Source: Peltaster fructicola (lineage: Eukaryota; Ascomycota; Dothideomycetes). Taken from it: a DNA stretch of 64,000 nucleotides. This document shows positions 569-64,000 of this stretch, piece by piece. The stretch lies in NCBI GenBank assembly GCA_001592805.2, contig CP051140.1, forward strand, positions 4,062,645 through 4,126,644, written 5' to 3'. Each line of letters opens with the position of its first letter. The first letter of the stretch is position 1. The position numbers were made by a program, and so were the translations under genes. The notes beneath the pieces were generated by a model. The model was not told the DNA's origin, searched no databases, and was given only the letters and a program-made list of their open reading frames with translations.

Positions 569-1676
569 ATGGGTAAGCGAGGATACGGTCTACTGCTGAC
601 GCTGTCGGCCATTACGGCCACAAGCGCACAAGTCGTCAATGGTATGCTCACACTACAATTTCCAAGACTCCCCTCTGACCACAACAGCACTCCAAACCGT
701 CAGCGTCTTTGCAACATGTGGTGTACCAACAAGTACCGCCTTCCCTCAAGGCTTCAGCTACTCTAGCATGAGCACCGGCACCCTCCTCCCAAGCTTCACA
801 TTTGCGCCGTCATCGACCGCAAGCTCATCCTACACGCTCACCACAGCAACAGCCCTACCTGCCACCGCCAGCACGCCAGCCGGCGACACAAACTTCCCGC
901 TCTGCAGCAACACCACGGTCCTCGACGCTTGCACGACTGTTCAAGGCCAGACGTGCCAAGACAACAATGGGCTGGCATATACCTTCATCTGCGCATCTGA
1001 TATCTCCTGTGGCACTGTTCTCCCTGACAACACGGCATTGACGAAGCGATCCTTTGTGTTCACTTTTGCAGAATGTCTCGACAGCTGTGATGGCCAGGCT
1101 GGCTGTGTGGCAGCCACGTTCGATACAACCAATTCGATTCCGGGTGGTGGTTCAGAGTGTAGGCTCTTCTCGGCCGTCATCCAGACAGCACGAGTAACGA
1201 TCCCGTTGCAACTGGCTATCCGTTGGTTCGCGGCAATTGGAGGACCTGTTCCATTCCCTCGCCAATCATCAAGCATTGTTGCAAGCTCAACAGCTACCTC
1301 TACAGCCAGTCTGTTGGCGTTGTCTTCCTCTGTGGTATCATCAGGAATCAGCTCGGCCGTGCCCTTCAGTAGTGCAGTCTCTAGCAGCGTACCATCGGCG
1401 CTTCCAAGCCAGTCGAGTGGCAGCTTGGCATCTTCAGTGGTCAGCCTCTCCTCGCCAACCAACTCGGCCTCCTCTGGTGTCAGCATTTCAGTGCCATCCA
1501 GCAGTGCATCCAATTCAGCATCGCTATCAGTCATTTCAAGCAGTGCAGCAGTCTCAGCATCCGCCTCTGTCACAGTGGCAACGCAGTCGGCTTCTGGAGT
1601 GAGTGCTGCGCTCACCGGAACTGTTTCGCCAAACCTTACCATGCGAAAGCGTCATCTTCATGCTCACAAGCATTAG
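569..1676 (+). CDS. secreted Ser/Thr-rich protein with PAN/Apple-like Cys region
   Basis: The two-exon model is 569-641 and 688-1676 with a 46 nt intron (GTATGC...CAACAG), giving 353 residues. The start at 569 is chosen because it gives a signal peptide (MGKRGYGLLLTLSAITATSA) that exon 2 lacks. A Ser/Thr-rich stretch follows, then about 100 residues with eight or more Cys, including a segment FAECLDSCDGQAGC followed by a Cys-Arg-Leu-Phe, which has the look of a fungal PAN/Apple-like module. The C-terminal 130 residues are almost entirely Ser/Ala/Val/Thr, as in cell-wall stalks, and the protein ends in a basic His-rich tail (MRKRHLHAHKH) rather than an obvious GPI signal. A role at the cell surface or in the matrix is inferred. 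It is convergent with the peptide precursor at 2020-5289. Confidence 0.75.
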
Positions 1677-2019: not shown

Positions 2020-5000
2020 TTAGCACTGGGTCTTGATGGCCTCGTTCCAGACGGAGCACTGGTCAGTTGGGGCAGATGCAGATGCAGACCATCCAGCACA
2101 TCCCTGCTCGAAGAGTGACTTCCAGACTGGGCAGAGCTCAGATGGGTCGGCAGCATCACGTTGCTGCTTTGGCTGCTGCTGCTGCTTGTTGCCGCTGAAC
2201 AGGCTGCTCAGGAGAGAGATACCAGTGGAGATGATGCTTCCCCATCCAGCCTCACGAGTGGCCAAGTCGGAGTCGGCCATGCCATCGATCATGCTTGAGA
2301 GGTTGTCGAGGACATCAGATGGGACCTCAAGACCACGAGCGCTGAGCTCGCCGTTGCTCTCGTAGGCGCCAGCCATGCTCTGGAGTGCGGCGATAACGTC
2401 AGAGTCCGAGACGTCACGCTTGTGGAACAGGCTGGTCAGGATGGAGATACCAGTGGAGATGATGCTGCCCCATCCGGCGTCACGAGTGCTGAGCTCACCA
2501 GATGCAACGGCATCGTTGATGGCGGCCTGGAAGGCTTGCATCTCTGGAGACTCTGCAACATCGCGGGACTGCTTCTTGTTGCCAGAGAAGAGGCTGGTCA
2601 GAAGAGAGATACCAGTGGAGATGATGCTTCCCCAGCCTGGGTCACGAGCGTTGAGCTGACCAGATGCCATCATGTCGTCAACAGCAGCCTTGAAGGCTTG
2701 CATCTCTGGCATGTCTGCGACATCACGAGATTGCTTCTTGTTGCCAGAGAAGAGGCTGGTGAGGAGAGAGATGCCGGTAGAGATGATAGATCCCCAGCCT
2801 GGCTCGCGGGTGTTGAGATGGCCGGAGGCAACCATGTCGTTAACAGCTGCCTGGAATGCCTTCATCTCTGGCATGTCCTGGATGTCACGAGACTGCTTCT
2901 TGTTGCCGGAGAACAAGCTGCTGATGAGGGAGATGCCGGTAGAGATGATGCTTCCCCATCCAGCTTCGGCCTCACGAGCGGCGAGCGAAGACTCAGACAG
3001 TGCGGACTCGACAGCGGACTGGAGCTCGGCCATGTCTGAATCTGAGATATCACGCTTTCCGAAGATCTTGGTGAAGATACCCTTGATGGTGTCGAGGAAA
3101 CCAGCGTCGCGGGTGCTGATTTGACCGTTCTCGTTGGCGAACTGCTCGACAGCGGCCTTGAATGCCTGCATCTCTGGGGAGTTCTCATCGACGTCACGCT
3201 TGCCGAAGATCTTGCTGAAGATGCCCTTGATGGTGTCGAGGAAGCCGGCGTCACGTGTGCTCAAGGATGGGTTCTCCGCTGCCAGCTGCTTGAGGGCAGC
3301 TTCGAGCTCCTTCATCTCTGGGGAGTTCTCGTCAACGTCACGCTTGCCGAAGATCTTGCTGAAGATGCCCTTGAGAGTGTCAAGGAAGCCAGCGTCACGA
3401 GCAGACAGGTGTGGGTTCTCAGCTGCAAAGTCGTTGACTGCCTTCTCGAATGCGGCGTATTCTGGAGAGCTCTGAATGTCACGCTTGCCGAAGATCTTGC
3501 TGAAGATGCCCTTGATGGTGTCCAAGAAACCGGCATCACGTGCGTTGAGGTTGCCGTTCTCGTCAGCGAGAGACTCAAGAGCGGCCTGGAACTCGGCAAG
3601 GTCATCTGCAGCCTCAGCATCACGCTTTCCGAAGATCTTGCTGAAGATACCCTTGAGGGTGTCGAGGAAGCCTGCATCGCGAGTTTGGATGCCGTTCTGG
3701 GCAGCGAAGTCCTTGAGGGCCTTCTCAAGCTCGGCGACTTCTGGTGAGTTCTCGTCGATAGCACGCTTTCCGAAGATCTTGCCGAAGATACCCTTGAGAG
3801 TGTCCAAGAAGTTTGCGTCACGAGTGCTGATACCATTCTGAGCAGCGTAGTCGTTGAGAGCCTTCTCGAGCTCGGCGACTTCTGGTGAGTTCTCGTCGAT
3901 ATCACGCTTTCCGAAGATCTTGCCGAAGATACCCTTGAGAGTGTCCAAGAAGTTTGCGTCACGAGTGCTGATACCGTGCTGGGTAGCGAAGTCGTTGAGA
4001 GCCTTCTCAAGCTCTTGCATCTCTGGAGAGCCCTCAGCGATCTCACGTGCGACGACACCAGTGGCAGCGTCCAAGTCTGCGGCAGCTTGCTCGAGCTGAG
4101 CAACCATGGATGCTGGGAGATCAGTATCACGTTGCGAGACAGCGCCAACAATGTTGCCAATAATGGTTCCGACGTTTCCAATACCGTGAAGGATACCGGA
4201 GACGTTGACCTTGGCCTCGCGAGCTGCAACCTTGGTCTGTTGTGCCAGCTGGTTGAGGGCATCCTCGAGCTGCTGCATCTGTTCTGGAGTGACCTCCTGA
4301 GCACGAGCCTTCAGCTTGCTTCCCTTGATACCCTGGACTATGCCGACAAGGTTGTTGGCGATGGTGCTGACGCTGCTGGCTCCATCGAGGATCTTGCCGT
4401 AGTCGACCTTGCCTTTAGCGGCGTCACGGACCATCTTTGATGATGGGTGAATGATGCCCTGGACTGTTGAGACGAGGTTGTTGACAATAGTGCTGACACT
4501 GCTGGCACCATCGAGGACTTTGCCCCATGGAACGCTCTTGAGAGCTGAAGCAACGGTTGGGTCACGTGCTTCGACAACGGTGCCAATTCGGTAGTTTGGT
4601 CGTGTGTTCACTGGGACGCCGTAGTGAAGAGGAATCTTGGCCTCACGTGCCTGCACAATACCAGCAAGGTTCTTTGCGATCTCGGTGGCATCTGCGATCT
4701 TGCCAAGGTTGCCAGAGATCTTGCCGTTCTTAGCATCACGGGCCTGCTGGTGGTTGTAGTAGGATGGGAAGCCCATGTTTGGACGACCGGCTGGAACGCC
4801 TTGTGGAGCGCCCTGGTAGTTGCCCCATGCTGCCTCAGCATCACGGGCTTGCTGGTGTTCGTAGTAAGATGGACGTCCCATGTTTGGTCGACCGACTGGG
4901 AATCCCTGAGGAGCACCCTGGTAGTTGCCCCAGCCTGCCTCGGCATCCCGAGCAGCGACCTGGTCGGTAGTCTGCTGTGTCTGAGCTGCCTGCTGTTGCT

Positions 5001-5289
5001 GTGGTGCTGCCTGTTGCTGTGGACCTGCTGGCGCACCCGCTGGCATACCTGCTGGCATGTTCATCTGAGGACCCATTGGTCGACCTTGTGGGCGGCCCTG
5101 GAAGCCTTGTGGTGGGCCCTGGAAGCCTTGTGGTGGACCCTGGAAGCCCTGGCCTTGCCACTGGTGGTTGTGGTGAGCATCGCGCTTCTCAGCTGCGACA
5201 TCTGGACCAGTGGATGGTGGGTTCACTGGTGCGGCTGCAACGGCGGCAGCGAGGAGTGGGACAACAACGAAGGACTTGACCTGAACCAT
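2020..5289 (-). CDS. secreted multi-peptide repeat precursor (Kex2-processed type)
   Basis: A single exon encodes 1,089 residues from the ATG at 5289. An in-frame ATG 26 codons upstream is rejected because the 5289 start gives a clean signal peptide (MVQVKSFVVVPLLAAAVAAA). Lys-Arg sites occur at residues 35-36, 461, 508, 555, 602, 649, 697, 745 and 957. In order: a Gln/Pro/Gly-rich part with GFQGPPQ repeats (about 48-105), two GNYQGAPQG peptides (119-184), four hydrophobic peptides (about 190-388, two sharing LDGASSVSTI), seven copies of (N/G)FLDT(I/L)KGIF(G/S/T)KIFGKR (445-746), five copies of GWGSIISTGIS followed by a basic or polar tail (777-1044), and a C-terminal module with four Cys (about 1052-1089). 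Acidic spacers alternate with the peptides, and many units begin after Arg with DA, EA, DAEA or EAEA, like Ste13-trimmed pheromone spacers. This matches the fungal Kex2-processed repeat protein class (pheromone precursors, Rep1, Ece1). The activity of the peptides is unknown; membrane-active, antimicrobial or surface-active roles are inferred from amphipathicity only. Confidence 0.85.
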   Translation of the reverse strand: MVQVKSFVVVPLLAAAVAAAPVNPPSTGPDVAAEKRDAHHNHQWQGQGFQGPPQGFQGPPQGFQGRPQGRPMGPQMNMPAGMPAGAPAGPQQQAAPQQQQAAQTQQTTDQVAARDAEAGWGNYQGAPQGFPVGRPNMGRPSYYEHQQARDAEAAWGNYQGAPQGVPAGRPNMGFPSYYNHQQARDAKNGKISGNLGKIADATEIAKNLAGIVQAREAKIPLHYGVPVNTRPNYRIGTVVEARDPTVASALKSVPWGKVLDGASSVSTIVNNLVSTVQGIIHPSSKMVRDAAKGKVDYGKILDGASSVSTIANNLVGIVQGIKGSKLKARAQEVTPEQMQQLEDALNQLAQQTKVAAREAKVNVSGILHGIGNVGTIIGNIVGAVSQRDTDLPASMVAQLEQAAADLDAATGVVAREIAEGSPEMQELEKALNDFATQHGISTRDANFLDTLKGIFGKIFGKRDIDENSPEVAELEKALNDYAAQNGISTRDANFLDTLKGIFGKIFGKRAIDENSPEVAELEKALKDFAAQNGIQTRDAGFLDTLKGIFSKIFGKRDAEAADDLAEFQAALESLADENGNLNARDAGFLDTIKGIFSKIFGKRDIQSSPEYAAFEKAVNDFAAENPHLSARDAGFLDTLKGIFSKIFGKRDVDENSPEMKELEAALKQLAAENPSLSTRDAGFLDTIKGIFSKIFGKRDVDENSPEMQAFKAAVEQFANENGQISTRDAGFLDTIKGIFTKIFGKRDISDSDMAELQSAVESALSESSLAAREAEAGWGSIISTGISLISSLFSGNKKQSRDIQDMPEMKAFQAAVNDMVASGHLNTREPGWGSIISTGISLLTSLFSGNKKQSRDVADMPEMQAFKAAVDDMMASGQLNARDPGWGSIISTGISLLTSLFSGNKKQSRDVAESPEMQAFQAAINDAVASGELSTRDAGWGSIISTGISILTSLFHKRDVSDSDVIAALQSMAGAYESNGELSARGLEVPSDVLDNLSSMIDGMADSDLATREAGWGSIISTGISLLSSLFSGNKQQQQPKQQRDAADPSELCPVWKSLFEQGCAGWSASASAPTDQCSVWNEAIKTQC
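2158..2961 (-). repeat. five repeats, mostly 162 bp unit (GWGSIISTGIS peptide)
   Basis: Residues 777-1044 of the precursor hold five units starting at residues 777, 831, 885, 939 and 1015. The core is GWGSIISTGIS(L/I)(I/L)(S/T)SLF, an uncharged hydrophobic helix. Three copies are followed by SGNKKQSR, one by HKR and the last by a Gln-rich basic tail. Spacers are acidic and contain PEM(K/Q)AF. Confidence 0.9.
3052..3957 (-). repeat. seven tandem repeats, 141-144 bp unit (FLDT-KGIF peptide)
   Basis: Within the precursor, residues 445-746 hold seven units spaced 47, 47, 47, 47, 48 and 48 residues apart. Each unit is a short cationic amphipathic segment ending in Lys-Arg followed by an acidic spacer of about 28 residues (for example one starting DENSPEVAELEKAL). 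In GFLDTIKGIFSKIFG the hydrophobic residues F2, L3, I6, I9, F10, I13 and F14 fall on one helical face and D4, T5, K7, S11 and K12 on the other. The peptide part is much more conserved than the spacers. Confidence 0.9.
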
Positions 5290-8200
5290 GTTTGCGGTTT
5301 GAAAGTTTAGTCTTGGAAAAAGTTTGAGTGCTGAAGTGGCTTGTTGACGAGGTTGCTGAAGTCTCAAGAAAGTGTCTTGAGATTTGAGGATGTGTTTGAG
5401 TTTGTCAGGAAGCCTGCCCTGATTGATGAGTTTCCTTGTTATTTGAGGTTTTGGGGAAGTGCTGAAGAGCTTTGGGGATTGATTTGATGTGTGAAAAGGA
5501 AGCCTGTTCCTTGTGTTGTGCTGTTAAGTGCTGTAGATGGGGAAGGAAACCGGTCCTATTAAGAATGTGTGTGTGAGAGTGATGAAGCGGTAGATAACAA
5601 AGGAAAATCAGGAAGCCTGTCCTGAGGGGATGTTTGGTTGATGAGATTGTTGGATGGTTGTCTGATGAGATACTGAGAGGGTGCCGCAAACTCCTTATAT
5701 GTCTGTGAAGCCAGAGCCATCACGCACAAGTGTCCACCCATACTGCTATTCTGACAACTGCAGATCGCGTGCCAAGCGTGGTTGGTAAGAGGATTAGTGC
5801 GTATACGGCCTTGTAGGCTGTTGGGTTGGCGGGCACTGTAGCGTGCACACGAAACACATTCGCTATCGTTGGAGAGGCCAGGCAAGGACAGTGTAGAGAG
5901 GACAGAGTTGCAAAGTGGGTGTTGGTGGACGTTGTGAGCTTCATGCGGGTCTGAAAATAGATAAGCATAGGCCGAGATGGAGCGCGGGCTTGTCTCACTA
6001 CCAGCCGATCTAGGGTAACACCGCCACACGCTCTTCGAAAGTGTCTAGCGTTGGATCTGTGTCTCCGAGTCGCAACGGTTGGGTCATCTCACACGTGAGC
6101 CGTGTACTGGAGGGTACAGCTGTGATTGGTGCTGTGTACGGGCCTGCAGCCGTAAGATACGAAGCAATCTCAGTGCAGGCTGAGTCTAGGGCGACATGAA
6201 TAGCTGTGATCGCCATCAATGATGACTAAAAGATCGTGAGACTGCGTTGAACCGTTCCGGACAGGTCGAGGTCAATCCACCGAGTCAAGGCATTGCTGAT
6301 GACGGTCTAGATCGGTTTGAGAAAGCATGATAGCAGACAATAAGAGATACGATACAGTGCGCGTGCAGAGGTAGAGATGCGAAGACGTAAGGCATTGACA
6401 ATGTGCTTGTACCATCATATCGCGTGTACAACTGCGAACAGGACCATCGTAGTAGCCGCGGGATTTGTGAGCGGTCGGCAGGATAGTGCTGCTGCGGTCA
6501 CTGACTGAAGTCAGTGTGCCATCGGCGTGCCTTTTGATCCGCCGGCAGCTCATCACGCGAACTCTTGTTCATTGTGATCCGCAAGGTAGCCTGGTCTTGA
6601 ACACAGCAACTTTTGTGCGAAAGCCGGCCGATATTCCTGCGACAACTCTGTCTCTGTATATCCTGCTCTTGATGATTGAGGGTAGTCGTGATGGTGTTTG
6701 GTGAACGTATCTCGGACTTCTAGACCTACACAGTCTTCGTTGCTGATCGCTTGGGCGATGAACGAAGTTGAGTAGAGGTGCAGTTTGTACAATCAATGTG
6801 GCACAGTCTTGAGATGGTACGATGCCGCACCACTGCGTCAAAGCAAGGAGCGGCGATGATAGTATTCACCTAGATCGTATCAGCTAATGCAAGCACTTAC
6901 GACATGCATGCACAGGTGTTCGCAACAACGCATGTGGTTTGAGCTGATCTCCAAGCACGTTGGTAACGCCGTTAGTAACAGCAGAGGATGACAGCCAGCG
7001 AGATCTGGCTTTGCTCGTCAAACAGGAGAGAGGAGGCTGTGGGCATCGAAGGATCATCAAGCTTGTCCCACTGTCATTTCGGATCCCTGTCCACCGGACC
7101 TCAGATGATCAAGTGTGATGTTGGCAAGGGTGCGAGATCTAATTGCAGATTGTCAGTGTCAGATGGTTGTGCGAGGTCAAACTTGCTACTGCACGGTGTT
7201 GTGATCGTCACAGCATAGACGAGCAGTGCATATGTCGAGCAGTTGTTGCAAATTGAGCTGCTGTGAGGAGCGCAGAGCCTAGACTGCACGTTTGTGCTCC
7301 TGCTGGTTTCGATCGAGACCTCTGGCGGATGCTGTCTAGATGATAGAGCATACTGGCTCAGGCATGCGTGGCTCAGGCGGATCCTCCATCAAATCCATCG
7401 ATATGAGGTATGATGAGGCTTACAGGCCCGCGAGATAATGGTTTGAGCATCAGATAGCATCTGGGAGGCACTGCCGAGCAGCACTTGCGAAAGATGGTGC
7501 TTGACAACGCGTAGAGGTCGTTGTTGTCATCGTAAGGTGCATGCTGCCACGACGTCAAGATGCATGTCGACACTTAGCCAATGTCCGTAACAGATGGCTC
7601 GCATGCGCTGGTCTGAGATTTGCGGTAGTTATTGATGCAATCGCAGTCTTGTAGAGGTCTTGACGCATGTATTGAGATGGTGCAAATGTTTACGTCAGCG
7701 GAAGGAGGGTGGAGGTAGAAATGCGTACGCCAAGATATCGCAACGCTGTTTGTAGATGCCCTCGTGTGGTCGTACATAGAAGCCGCGACCCTCAATGATG
7801 CGCGGACGGTGTATATGAGTCGAGAGCTATCATCTGTGCTGGTCTGAGGGCCATGTGAGGCCTTACTTGACCATTTGTGCATGTTTGCGCTTTCTGTACA
7901 TTTTTCGTTCTTAACATCAATTGGATTTCATGTCGAATGCGAACTCGTCACCAACTTCATGCATGCCACAACCAAAGTGCTGCCATCCTACCTCACCGTC
8001 AAGATACATTGAATTGCTACGACTGCCACGAAGGTCGATAGACGTTGAGTGCAGTGCTATTACATCTAGGTATGGCGTGTATCGGTCTGTCGATTCTAGC
8101 ATGACACCGTTCGCTGCAACACCTCCTTGCTGTCGGTACGAGCACCTAAGAGCATACAAGACCTTCACAGAGACCAGCGACGGGCTGGCGTCATTCAACA

Positions 8201-63142: not shown

Positions 63143-63903
63143 GTCGCAGGGAGTTCAGACTGCGACATCTGGGCAGCGCGAATGCCTGGTGATCAGGCCG
63201 TCATGCATGAGGTACCGGCCGTGTGAAGAAGTGCACTCATTGCGCAATGGCGAGGAGGAGCAGGATAAGGCTGAGCAGAAGGATTTGCCAAAAGTGGTCG
63301 GGCGGATGTGCCACGACCTTTGGCAGGTGAGGTAGAGCTTCGACTGTTGTACACACAGCAATCCTAGTCGTGCATTGATGTAAGCAATACACGCCTCGCG
63401 ATGCCAGTAGATGGAAGTCTGATGCTGAGAAGCATCCTTATGCGTGGCAATTCAGCAGTGATGCTCACATGCGACAAGGTCTCCACACAGCAGGTAGGTA
63501 CGCGCAGGCATACGAATGACGATCAGCAGGTGCAGAAGAGCCTGCATCTGCACGGTGATGTACACGATTGCTGGCAGAGCAGTGAGTCGTCCACATGAAA
63601 GACCAATAACTGAAGGTGCAAGGTGGCGACGACTAGGCGGCCTGCATGCCCCATCAATGCACAGGAGCAGCTGTCCTCTGGCAGCGACTCTACGACGATT
63701 GATTGACGCGAGCGACGTCGGTCATCGTGCTTGGAGCATACTTGCTATCAGCCAAAGGTACATCCTATCTCACCACATCCCACGAGCCCTCACAAGCCCT
63801 CACAAGCCCTGACAGAGATCCAGCACCACCTCGGACCTTCGAATGTCTATCGCTGAGCATTCAGCTTCGTGCTGTGCGCCCTACAGCTCAAGCACAGTAC
63901 CGC
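63143..63903. other. subtelomeric spacer
   Basis: It holds the promoter of the HET-NACHT-ankyrin gene and about 0.6 kb of non-coding sequence up to the telomere. A small tandem repeat of the 10-mer CACAAGCCCT (first copy CACGAGCCCT) lies at 63781-63810. Confidence 0.6.
63781..63810 (+). repeat. three tandem 10-bp units next to the telomere
   Basis: Positions 63781-63790, 63791-63800 and 63801-63810 read CACGAGCCCT, CACAAGCCCT and CACAAGCCCT, with one mismatch in the first copy. The array is about 95 bases from the telomeric repeat. Confidence 0.85.
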
Positions 63904-64000
63904 GGGTAGGGTAGGGTAGGGTAGGGTAGGGTAGGGTAGGGTAGGGTAGGGTAGGGTAGGGTAGGGTAGGGTAGGGTAGGGTAGGGTAGGGTAGGGTAGG
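63904..64000 (+). repeat. telomeric repeat, (TAGGG)n, right chromosome end
   Basis: From 63904 to the window end the sequence is an uninterrupted repeat of the five-base unit GGGTA, about 19 copies with no variant unit. The G-rich strand runs 5' to 3' toward the end of the window, the correct orientation for a right telomere. The usual filamentous-fungus unit is TTAGGG; here every unit has a single T. Confidence 0.95.

Follow-up and report, generated by a model that had tools for sequence, protein, structure and literature searches.

Our analyses of a 64,000-nucleotide stretch of the genome of the apple-surface fungus Peltaster fructicola (the window; G000:C2:4062645-4126644, contig CP051140.1) point to a gene, here called P, which is best read as a precursor of a known kind, the Kex2-processed repeat proteins (KEPs), with a new layout. 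Release of peptides from P is highly probable, and a helical membrane or surface activity of the released cores is rather probable. The complete reading that we favour, in which P is a KEP-type polyprotein releasing helical membrane- or surface-active peptides, most likely for microbial competition on the fruit surface, we would place at an even prospect. A sequence-only reading of the same DNA had already proposed a secreted precursor with several repeated peptide classes, which we retain as probable, the signal peptide being judged by eye; a diverged paralogue, Q, and the leader hairpins common to P and Q had escaped it.

Layout and junction code of P

P lies on the minus strand, as do all of its features given below, at 2020..5289, with an ATG at 5289, a stop at 2022-2020 and 1,089 unbroken codons. 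The hydrophobic N-terminus, by eye a probable signal peptide (about residues 1-20; 5230..5289), is followed by two GNYQGAPQG units (residues 115-149, 4843..4947; residues 150-184, 4738..4842) and two LDGASSVSTI units (residues 243-288, 4426..4563; residues 289-329, 4303..4425). In block 1 (3052..3960), seven FLDT cores (3904-3960, 3763-3819, 3622-3678, 3481-3537, 3340-3396, 3196-3252 and 3052-3108) alternate with acidic spacers of 28-29 residues, while block 2 (2158..2973) holds five GWGSIIST units (2887-2973, 2725-2805, 2563-2643, 2416-2481 and 2158-2253) and 27-residue acidic spacers, two consecutive acidic units standing ahead of the final GWGS core. The protein ends in a four-Cys module (residues 1045-1089; 2023..2157), which has a start like the Ste13 signature described below but is acidic; by eye, a short unit seems to occur twice in this tail, as CPVW...C and as CSVW...C. 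A recount returned every figure previously given for these elements, namely nine Lys-Arg (KR) sites, seven matches to FLDT[LI]KGIF.KIFGKR, five to GWGSIISTGIS, two each to LDGASSVSTI and GNYQGAPQG, and four Cys, all of them by eye within the C-terminal 45 residues.

Tandem repeats were detected in the two main blocks with periods of 141-282 and scores of 498-720. Across residues 416-1044, a non-acidic core is followed by an acidic spacer, or the reverse, in 23 of 24 steps, a frequency of charge-sign change (units 416-1013) that was matched by 0 of 20,000 label shuffles. Because of these scores and of the unmatched alternation, we do not attribute the repeat structure to chance.

In the repeat blocks, arginine is found almost exclusively at unit junctions. 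Of its 43 occurrences in P, 36 are at unit junctions, before Asp (27), Glu (6), Ala (2) or Gly (1), and the seven others form six Arg-Pro and one Arg-Ile; from residue 388 to 1044 all 26 Arg are at junctions, despite the 40 Lys present. Nine of the 36 junctions are KR and 27 are monobasic, the latter with Leu, Ile or Val at position P4 in 20 cases, Lys in five and Gln in two, an aliphatic enrichment with a binomial p of 2e-9 against composition (L/I/V/M counted); in Q, L/I/V/M occupies P4 at 8 of 10 monobasic junctions and Lys at two. The expanded Kex2 motif described for fungal effectors, LxxR, has Arg at P1, Lys or one of Arg, Thr, Pro, Glu and Ile at P2, and Leu or another aliphatic residue at P4 (PMC8528282, relevant part), which 20 of the 27 monobasic junctions of P fit.

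The start of the units is equally regular. Ste13 is described as removing XA or XP dipeptides (PMC6339444, relevant part), and the corresponding signature, [DE][AP], opens 28 of the 49 units of P and Q taken together (the three-residue end of Q excluded). When charge is counted from the third residue, with trailing Lys or Arg removed, 26 of these 28 units are non-acidic as opposed to 0 of the 21 signature-free units (Fisher 6e-12, on copies that are not independent), so that the signature stands on 26 of 26 non-acidic and 2 of 23 acidic units; collapsed by hand into 15 families, the association gives p 0.004. The many Arg sites followed by Asp-Ala or Glu-Ala that had been pointed out earlier are real, and their description can be sharpened, most junctions being monobasic and the start marking mainly non-acidic units. 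The genome was found to encode one protein of Kex2 type, in which a proprotein domain is accompanied by a membrane-like segment at the C-terminus, and one of DPPIV type (Ste13-type), whose membrane-like segment is N-terminal.

From these patterns we infer secretion, cleavage, trimming, masking and activity of the P products, as well as the Vts1 binding discussed below. Kex2 would cut P between units at the Arg junctions, and units starting with Asp/Glu-Ala/Pro would be trimmed N-terminally by the Ste13-type dipeptidyl aminopeptidase; most acidic spacers do not have that start and hence would be left untrimmed. Before cleavage, the hydrophobic cores with their Lys residues would be maintained in a soluble, inactive state by the acidic spacers, on the model of the shielding known from Ece1. 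The predicted products are about seven copies of a 15-residue amphipathic peptide and five amphipathic peptides of 18-30 residues, plus a few others, which would cooperate extracellularly as helices active on membranes or surfaces, most likely against other microbes on the fruit. The FLDT cores (3052-3960) terminate in Gly-Lys-Arg and the first cores of Q in Gly-Arg-Arg; in animals, such Gly-basic-basic ends are an amidation signal. No match to the amidating PHM domain was found in the genome, in a search that lacked a positive control.

Pooled ratios of non-synonymous to synonymous differences (pN/pS) are 0.19 for the FLDT cores of P, 0.16 for the GWGS cores (17 residues), 0.13 for the three longer GWGS cores and 0.17 for GNYQ, compared with 0.86, 0.35 and 0.31 for its three spacer sets; the values in Q are 0.18 (first core family), 0.75 (second core family) and 0.15 (spacer end). 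This supports stronger purifying selection on the main cores of P than on its spacers, for which Q gives no such support. The mean hydrophobic moment of four hand-picked cores is 0.34 at 100 degrees versus 0.20 when shuffled (p 0.003) and 0.08 versus 0.20 (p 0.99) at the 170 degrees expected of beta structure, and the addition of three further hand-picked units of P brings the helical moment to p 0.0004. The membrane-active look first noted in these peptides thus holds as far as amphipathic cores are concerned. Several peptide classes are indeed present, but their supposed unrelatedness is uncertain: within P, the alignment of FLDT with GWGS cores scores 7.1, slightly more than the 4.8 that shuffles reach at most, which may reflect a common origin or mere shared periodicity.

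The paralogue Q and the leader hairpins

Searching the genome with P recovered Q on contig C3, where the match covers residues 551-883 at 33% identity (E 2e-17), and the reverse search with Q at E<=10 returned the P and Q loci only. Q corresponds to the hypothetical protein AMS68_005034 of P. fructicola, of 453 residues (L002 1150-2511). Its UniRef name starts 'EF-hand domain-containing prote', yet no Pfam domain is listed for it, and the name is perhaps a misnomer due to the acidic spacers. After a signal-like N-terminus, acidic spacers alternate in Q with four GLLKxLFGLG cores, which have Arg-Arg at their end, and then with two PFLF cores that terminate in Lys-Lys-x-x-Arg. P shares this order, with cores ended by Phe-Gly-Lys-Arg first and GWGS cores, three of five ending in Asn-Lys-Lys-Gln-Ser-Arg, next. 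Mean core identity between P and Q is 0.37 in block 1 and 0.24 in block 2, compared with within-gene values of 0.89 and 0.88 in P and 0.85 and 0.64 in Q. Between the two genes, alignments of the block 1 cores and of the two sets of spacers score well above 60 shuffles, and block 2 cores, at 5.5, barely exceed the shuffled maximum of 5.4. Two peptide classes per precursor are probably older than the P/Q duplication, an assignment that for block 2 depends on tails and adjoining spacers more than on core letters.

On the sense strand, the leaders of P and Q each contain three hairpins in which the CAGG of the loop precedes a C (stems of at least five pairs, G-U allowed), their loops lying at -330, -217 and -127 from the ATG in P and at -232, -138 and -102 in Q (L002 911-1061). 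Those of P are TCAGGA-CAGGCT-TCCTGA (5608..5625), AAGGAA-CAGGC-TTCCTT (5496..5512), a 17-mer also present in the Q leader, and TCAGGG-CAGGCT-TCCTGA, with a closing G-U pair (5405..5422). A TATA-like box is located 5' of all hairpins in both genes, at -410 in P (the candidate TATAAG, 5694..5699) and at -311 in Q, and a weaker fourth hairpin of P, at -264, has a four-pair stem and the loop CCGGTT. Stem letters vary among the leader hairpins and the loop core is constant.

In a shuffle test that admitted no G-U closing pair (1,000 shuffles per leader), three hairpins with stems of at least four pairs were counted in each leader (those at -330, -264 and -217 in P) against a mean of 0.1, and three were reached in 0 of 1,000 shuffles; with stems of at least five pairs, the counts were two in P, equalled by 1 of 1,000 shuffles, and three in Q, equalled by 0 of 1,000. 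A 200-kb control, read on both strands, contained 126 CNGG hairpins with stems of at least five pairs and no triple cluster. A genome-wide search covered the exact 17- and 18-base forms, with the -232 and -102 forms of Q left out: the 17-mer occurs twice, once in each leader, and the 18-mer pattern twice, both times in the P leader. The other matches at two mismatches (three to the 17-mer and one to the 18-mer) disrupt the stem and are no more numerous than in reversed controls (5 and 1), and a third match to the degenerate leader motif, at C1:1122391, was dropped as it falls inside an open reading frame (ORF). When longer loops are allowed, one other cluster of overlapping CNGG-loop hairpins appears at window 778-1026 on the minus strand, perhaps by chance. 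Rfam gave no match at E<=1 for window 5200-5800, and the stems of P and Q were insufficiently lined up in the leader alignment for a covariance model.

Smaug recognition elements are hairpins with a CNGG or CNGGN loop of 4-5 bases (PMC9893680, relevant part), which the leader hairpins resemble, four of six having 4-5-base CAGG(C) loops, and a gene for the corresponding protein, Vts1, is present in the genome. Among five SAM_2 loci, the one on contig C4 at 1723072 (L020 1459-3156, minus strand) matches yeast Vts1p at E 1.7e-22, the other four having other SAM proteins as best matches. All seven residues reported to contact RNA in yeast Vts1, R464, K467, Y468, L496, G497, R500 and K501 (PMC9893680, relevant part), are by eye present with matching spacing in the C4 orthologue. 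It is possible that the leader hairpins constitute a Vts1-bound switch, with synthesis of P gated post-transcriptionally by Vts1 on its three Smaug-recognition-like hairpins. The wider proposal of a two-enzyme address code, in which Kex2 would free all units and Ste13 would mature nearly only the non-acidic ones, effector peptides of several classes being thereby separated from the spacers that shield them, combined with a Vts1-bound triple-hairpin switch in both paralogues, is more speculative, and we regard it as tentative. The occurrence in Q of the same plan and leader hairpins suggests a controlled peptide cocktail. We know of no KEP system with class-specific maturation plus a Smaug-type switch.

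Known systems and rival readings

Homology searches among 5.8 billion proteins returned P and Q only at E<=0.001, with the 8,000 most word-sharing candidates scored per search; since one search with Q in its alignment failed to return Q itself, the approach is insensitive and absence of homologues elsewhere is not established. No match to the whole of P was found in PDB at E<=1. In Pfam, MtrF exceeded its cut-off (25.3 versus 22 bits), but its match is limited to 28 residues (860-887) that span an acidic spacer and the first part of the following core. The matches to SCVP, SRP54_N and others fell under their cut-offs, and all were rejected as chance likeness to helical composition. No mention of gene P was found in the literature consulted, and the name Peltaster is absent from the main text of both KEP surveys (PMC6339444, PMC7329392).

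The survey of 250 secretomes reported 1,193 KEPs, of which 1,114 have one repeat motif, 77 two and 2 three (PMC6339444, relevant part). It required, as described there, a SignalP signal peptide without transmembrane segment, cuts at KR, RR or KK giving at least four fragments, and a motif in at least three copies covering at least 15% of the protein. P, with nine KR sites, and Q, with four RR sites, yield the required number of fragments, and by hand six KR-bounded fragments of 47-48 residues, each a spacer plus an FLDT core, account for 284 of the 1,089 residues of P. If monobasic junctions are also counted, the classes of P with at least three copies are FLDT, GWGS and the spacers, with two more in two copies; the comparison of class counts is not like for like, because the survey cuts dibasic sites and needs three copies, and under its rule P would not count as four classes. 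Precursors with more than one peptide type are nevertheless known, as Ece1 of Candida albicans, which yields eight peptides, and the two- and three-motif KEPs of the survey show, and the earlier contrast with known precursors that usually repeat one family is overstated. Like the KEPs of both surveys (PMC6339444, PMC7329392, relevant parts), P is a probable secreted precursor with units between Kex2 sites and no UstYa gene in the window. It differs from them in its mostly monobasic predicted cuts, its several core classes, its alternating acidic spacers and, as an apparently non-pheromone ascomycete precursor, in carrying the Ste13 signature on non-acidic units, a signature described as generally confined to alpha-pheromones in Ascomycota (PMC6339444).

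Ece1 has 271 residues, its eight peptides being separated at KR sites, and the peptides adjoining the hydrophobic toxin sequence shield it during secretion, which serves folding and delivery and not self-protection (PMC12153327, relevant part). P resembles it as a single putative precursor of several peptides with a hydrophobic amphipathic helix that neighbouring peptides would shield. It differs in being much longer (1,089 residues) and in having units in many copies, more than one class of core, monobasic junctions and the Ste13 signature. Rep1 of Ustilago maydis likewise gives several Kex2-cut amphipathic peptides (release from P being predicted), which form amyloid-like fibrils (PMC8528282, PMC12153327) and by the survey's account are without a Ste13 signature (PMC6339444; all relevant parts), whereas in P the periodicity of the cores is helical and the Ste13 signature is present. 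Amphibian skin antimicrobial peptide precursors combine cationic amphipathic cores, often amidated, with acidic spacers. They are animal where P is fungal, and P has many copies and classes in one protein, so that the likeness would be at most convergent.

A number of observations weigh against parts of the favoured reading. At the junctions of P, the commonest P2 residue is Ala (13/36), which is outside the five P2 alternatives of PMC8528282, two QQAR sites match neither P4 class, and the suitability of Lys at P4 is known from one title in the reference list of that paper; two acidic units, the one at 557 and the Cys tail, carry the Ste13 signature. The LDGASS pair of P has a pN/pS of 0.42, and the spacers of Q are as conserved as its cores in pN/pS, with a spacer identity of 0.77. 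Single-copy helical moments are borderline (p ~0.05-0.1 for most FLDT, GWGS and GLLK copies, and 0.26 for both PFLF copies), and the +1 net charge of trimmed FLDT cores is weak for a classical antimicrobial peptide. Regarding the leaders, folding of isolated hairpins gives -4.2 to -7.4 kcal/mol with z-scores of -0.7 to -2.4, so that their stability by itself is modest; two of the six, both in P, have a six-base CAGGCT loop, over the 4-5 bases of PMC9893680, and the Smaug elements known from that source are in 3' untranslated regions, unlike the presumed 5' leader copies of P and Q. The hairpins could also be protein-binding DNA dyads rather than RNA elements, although the asymmetric loop and the single orientation of all six copies favour RNA.

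Among the other functions that might explain P, a surface coating or surfactant role, in which the peptides would cover hyphae or wet the waxy cuticle in a Rep1-like manner, is the strongest contender, albeit an unlikely one. The codon bias of P detailed below points to a bulk product, low net core charge suits a surfactant, Rep1 is similarly a Kex2-cut amphipathic set (PMC8528282, PMC12153327), and the fungus has an ectophytic lifestyle (PMC7181583; relevant parts); against this, the amyloid-like behaviour of Rep1 (PMC8528282) is at odds with the helical rather than beta periodicity of the P cores, Rep1 is described as free of the Ste13 signature (PMC6339444), and a class II hydrophobin match already exists in the genome. 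A signalling role, in which cores trimmed by Ste13 would bind fungal receptors in the manner of pheromones or as ligands of another sort, is improbable. The general restriction of the signature to alpha-pheromones in Ascomycota (PMC6339444, relevant part) and the high core identity within P speak for it, and XA/XP dipeptides do follow Kex2 sites in P and Q, yet by eye the cores of P have neither the two Cys nor the PYGXPXG motif of Dothideomycete pheromones (motif from PMC6339444), several core classes share one precursor, and hydrophobic helices are not obviously soluble ligands.

We give still less weight to cytolytic peptides that would act on the host in the way of Ece1/candidalysin, with which P shares the plan of a hydrophobic helix amid shielding peptides (PMC12153327, relevant part) and no detected sequence relation: the searches, which were insensitive and scored 8,000 candidates each, returned no relative other than P and Q at E<=0.001. 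Least probable is an uncut structural or wall repeat protein. The Gly/Pro/Gln-rich N-terminal part of P does resemble wall proteins by eye; nevertheless, Arg in the repeat blocks is almost solely at junctions, and the junction code and the alternation are retained in the diverged Q. A dikaritin-type ribosomally synthesized and post-translationally modified peptide would call for a nearby UstYa (DUF3328) gene, and as had been supposed from the window alone none lies there, the two matches in the genome being on C1 and C3, one of them ~87 kb from Q. For helical peptides released from a KEP-type precursor, which we continue to favour, we would tentatively rank microbial competition first and surface coating second.

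Expression, genomic context and significance

The effective number of codons of P is 32.4 for the whole gene, 34.0 with one unit per family and 35.7 for residues 1-440, compared with 34.1 for a methionine synthase gene, 41.1 for a Cdc48-like gene, 45.9 for Q and 46.7-54.6 for nine others. Its codon adaptation index is 0.78 versus 0.81 for methionine synthase, against a small reference formed by the methionine synthase and Cdc48-like genes (the names Cdc48-like, histidine kinase and NLR being assigned by eye). As this codon bias is near that of methionine synthase, we infer very high expression of P, and not of Q.

GGGTA-type telomere repeats at 63890-64000 mark the contig end, which places P ~59-62 kb from the end of the chromosome. 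The genome comprises 18,987,130 bases in five contigs, with 4,890,228 bases in C1, and the published telomere-to-telomere assembly is described as 18.99 Mb in five chromosomes of 2.77 to 4.89 Mb (PMC7181583, relevant part). Pfam was applied to 10 of the 38 ORFs listed in the window, plus P and its next neighbour; the short-chain dehydrogenase, methionine synthase, family 2 peroxidase, Pex19 and family 17 glycosyltransferase found among those tested give no sign of a cluster devoted to P. The adjoining convergent ORF, at 639-1676, has a Ser-rich part and a weak PAN-domain similarity below cut-off. No class I hydrophobin was found in the genome, in a search without positive control.

A KEP survey restricted to dibasic sites would misread precursors of this type, because most junctions of P are monobasic. 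Provided that the code is correct, alternating charge together with the Ste13 signature could locate multi-peptide precursors in other fungi, and the exact ends of the mature peptides would be predictable and could be checked by mass spectrometry. Through the leader hairpins, the release of peptides active on membranes or surfaces may be connected with an RNA-binding repressor that is conserved between yeast and human, a connection that lends itself to testing. The genome of this fungus of orchard surfaces is very small, and a gene with a codon bias like that of methionine synthase is likely to be of importance to it.

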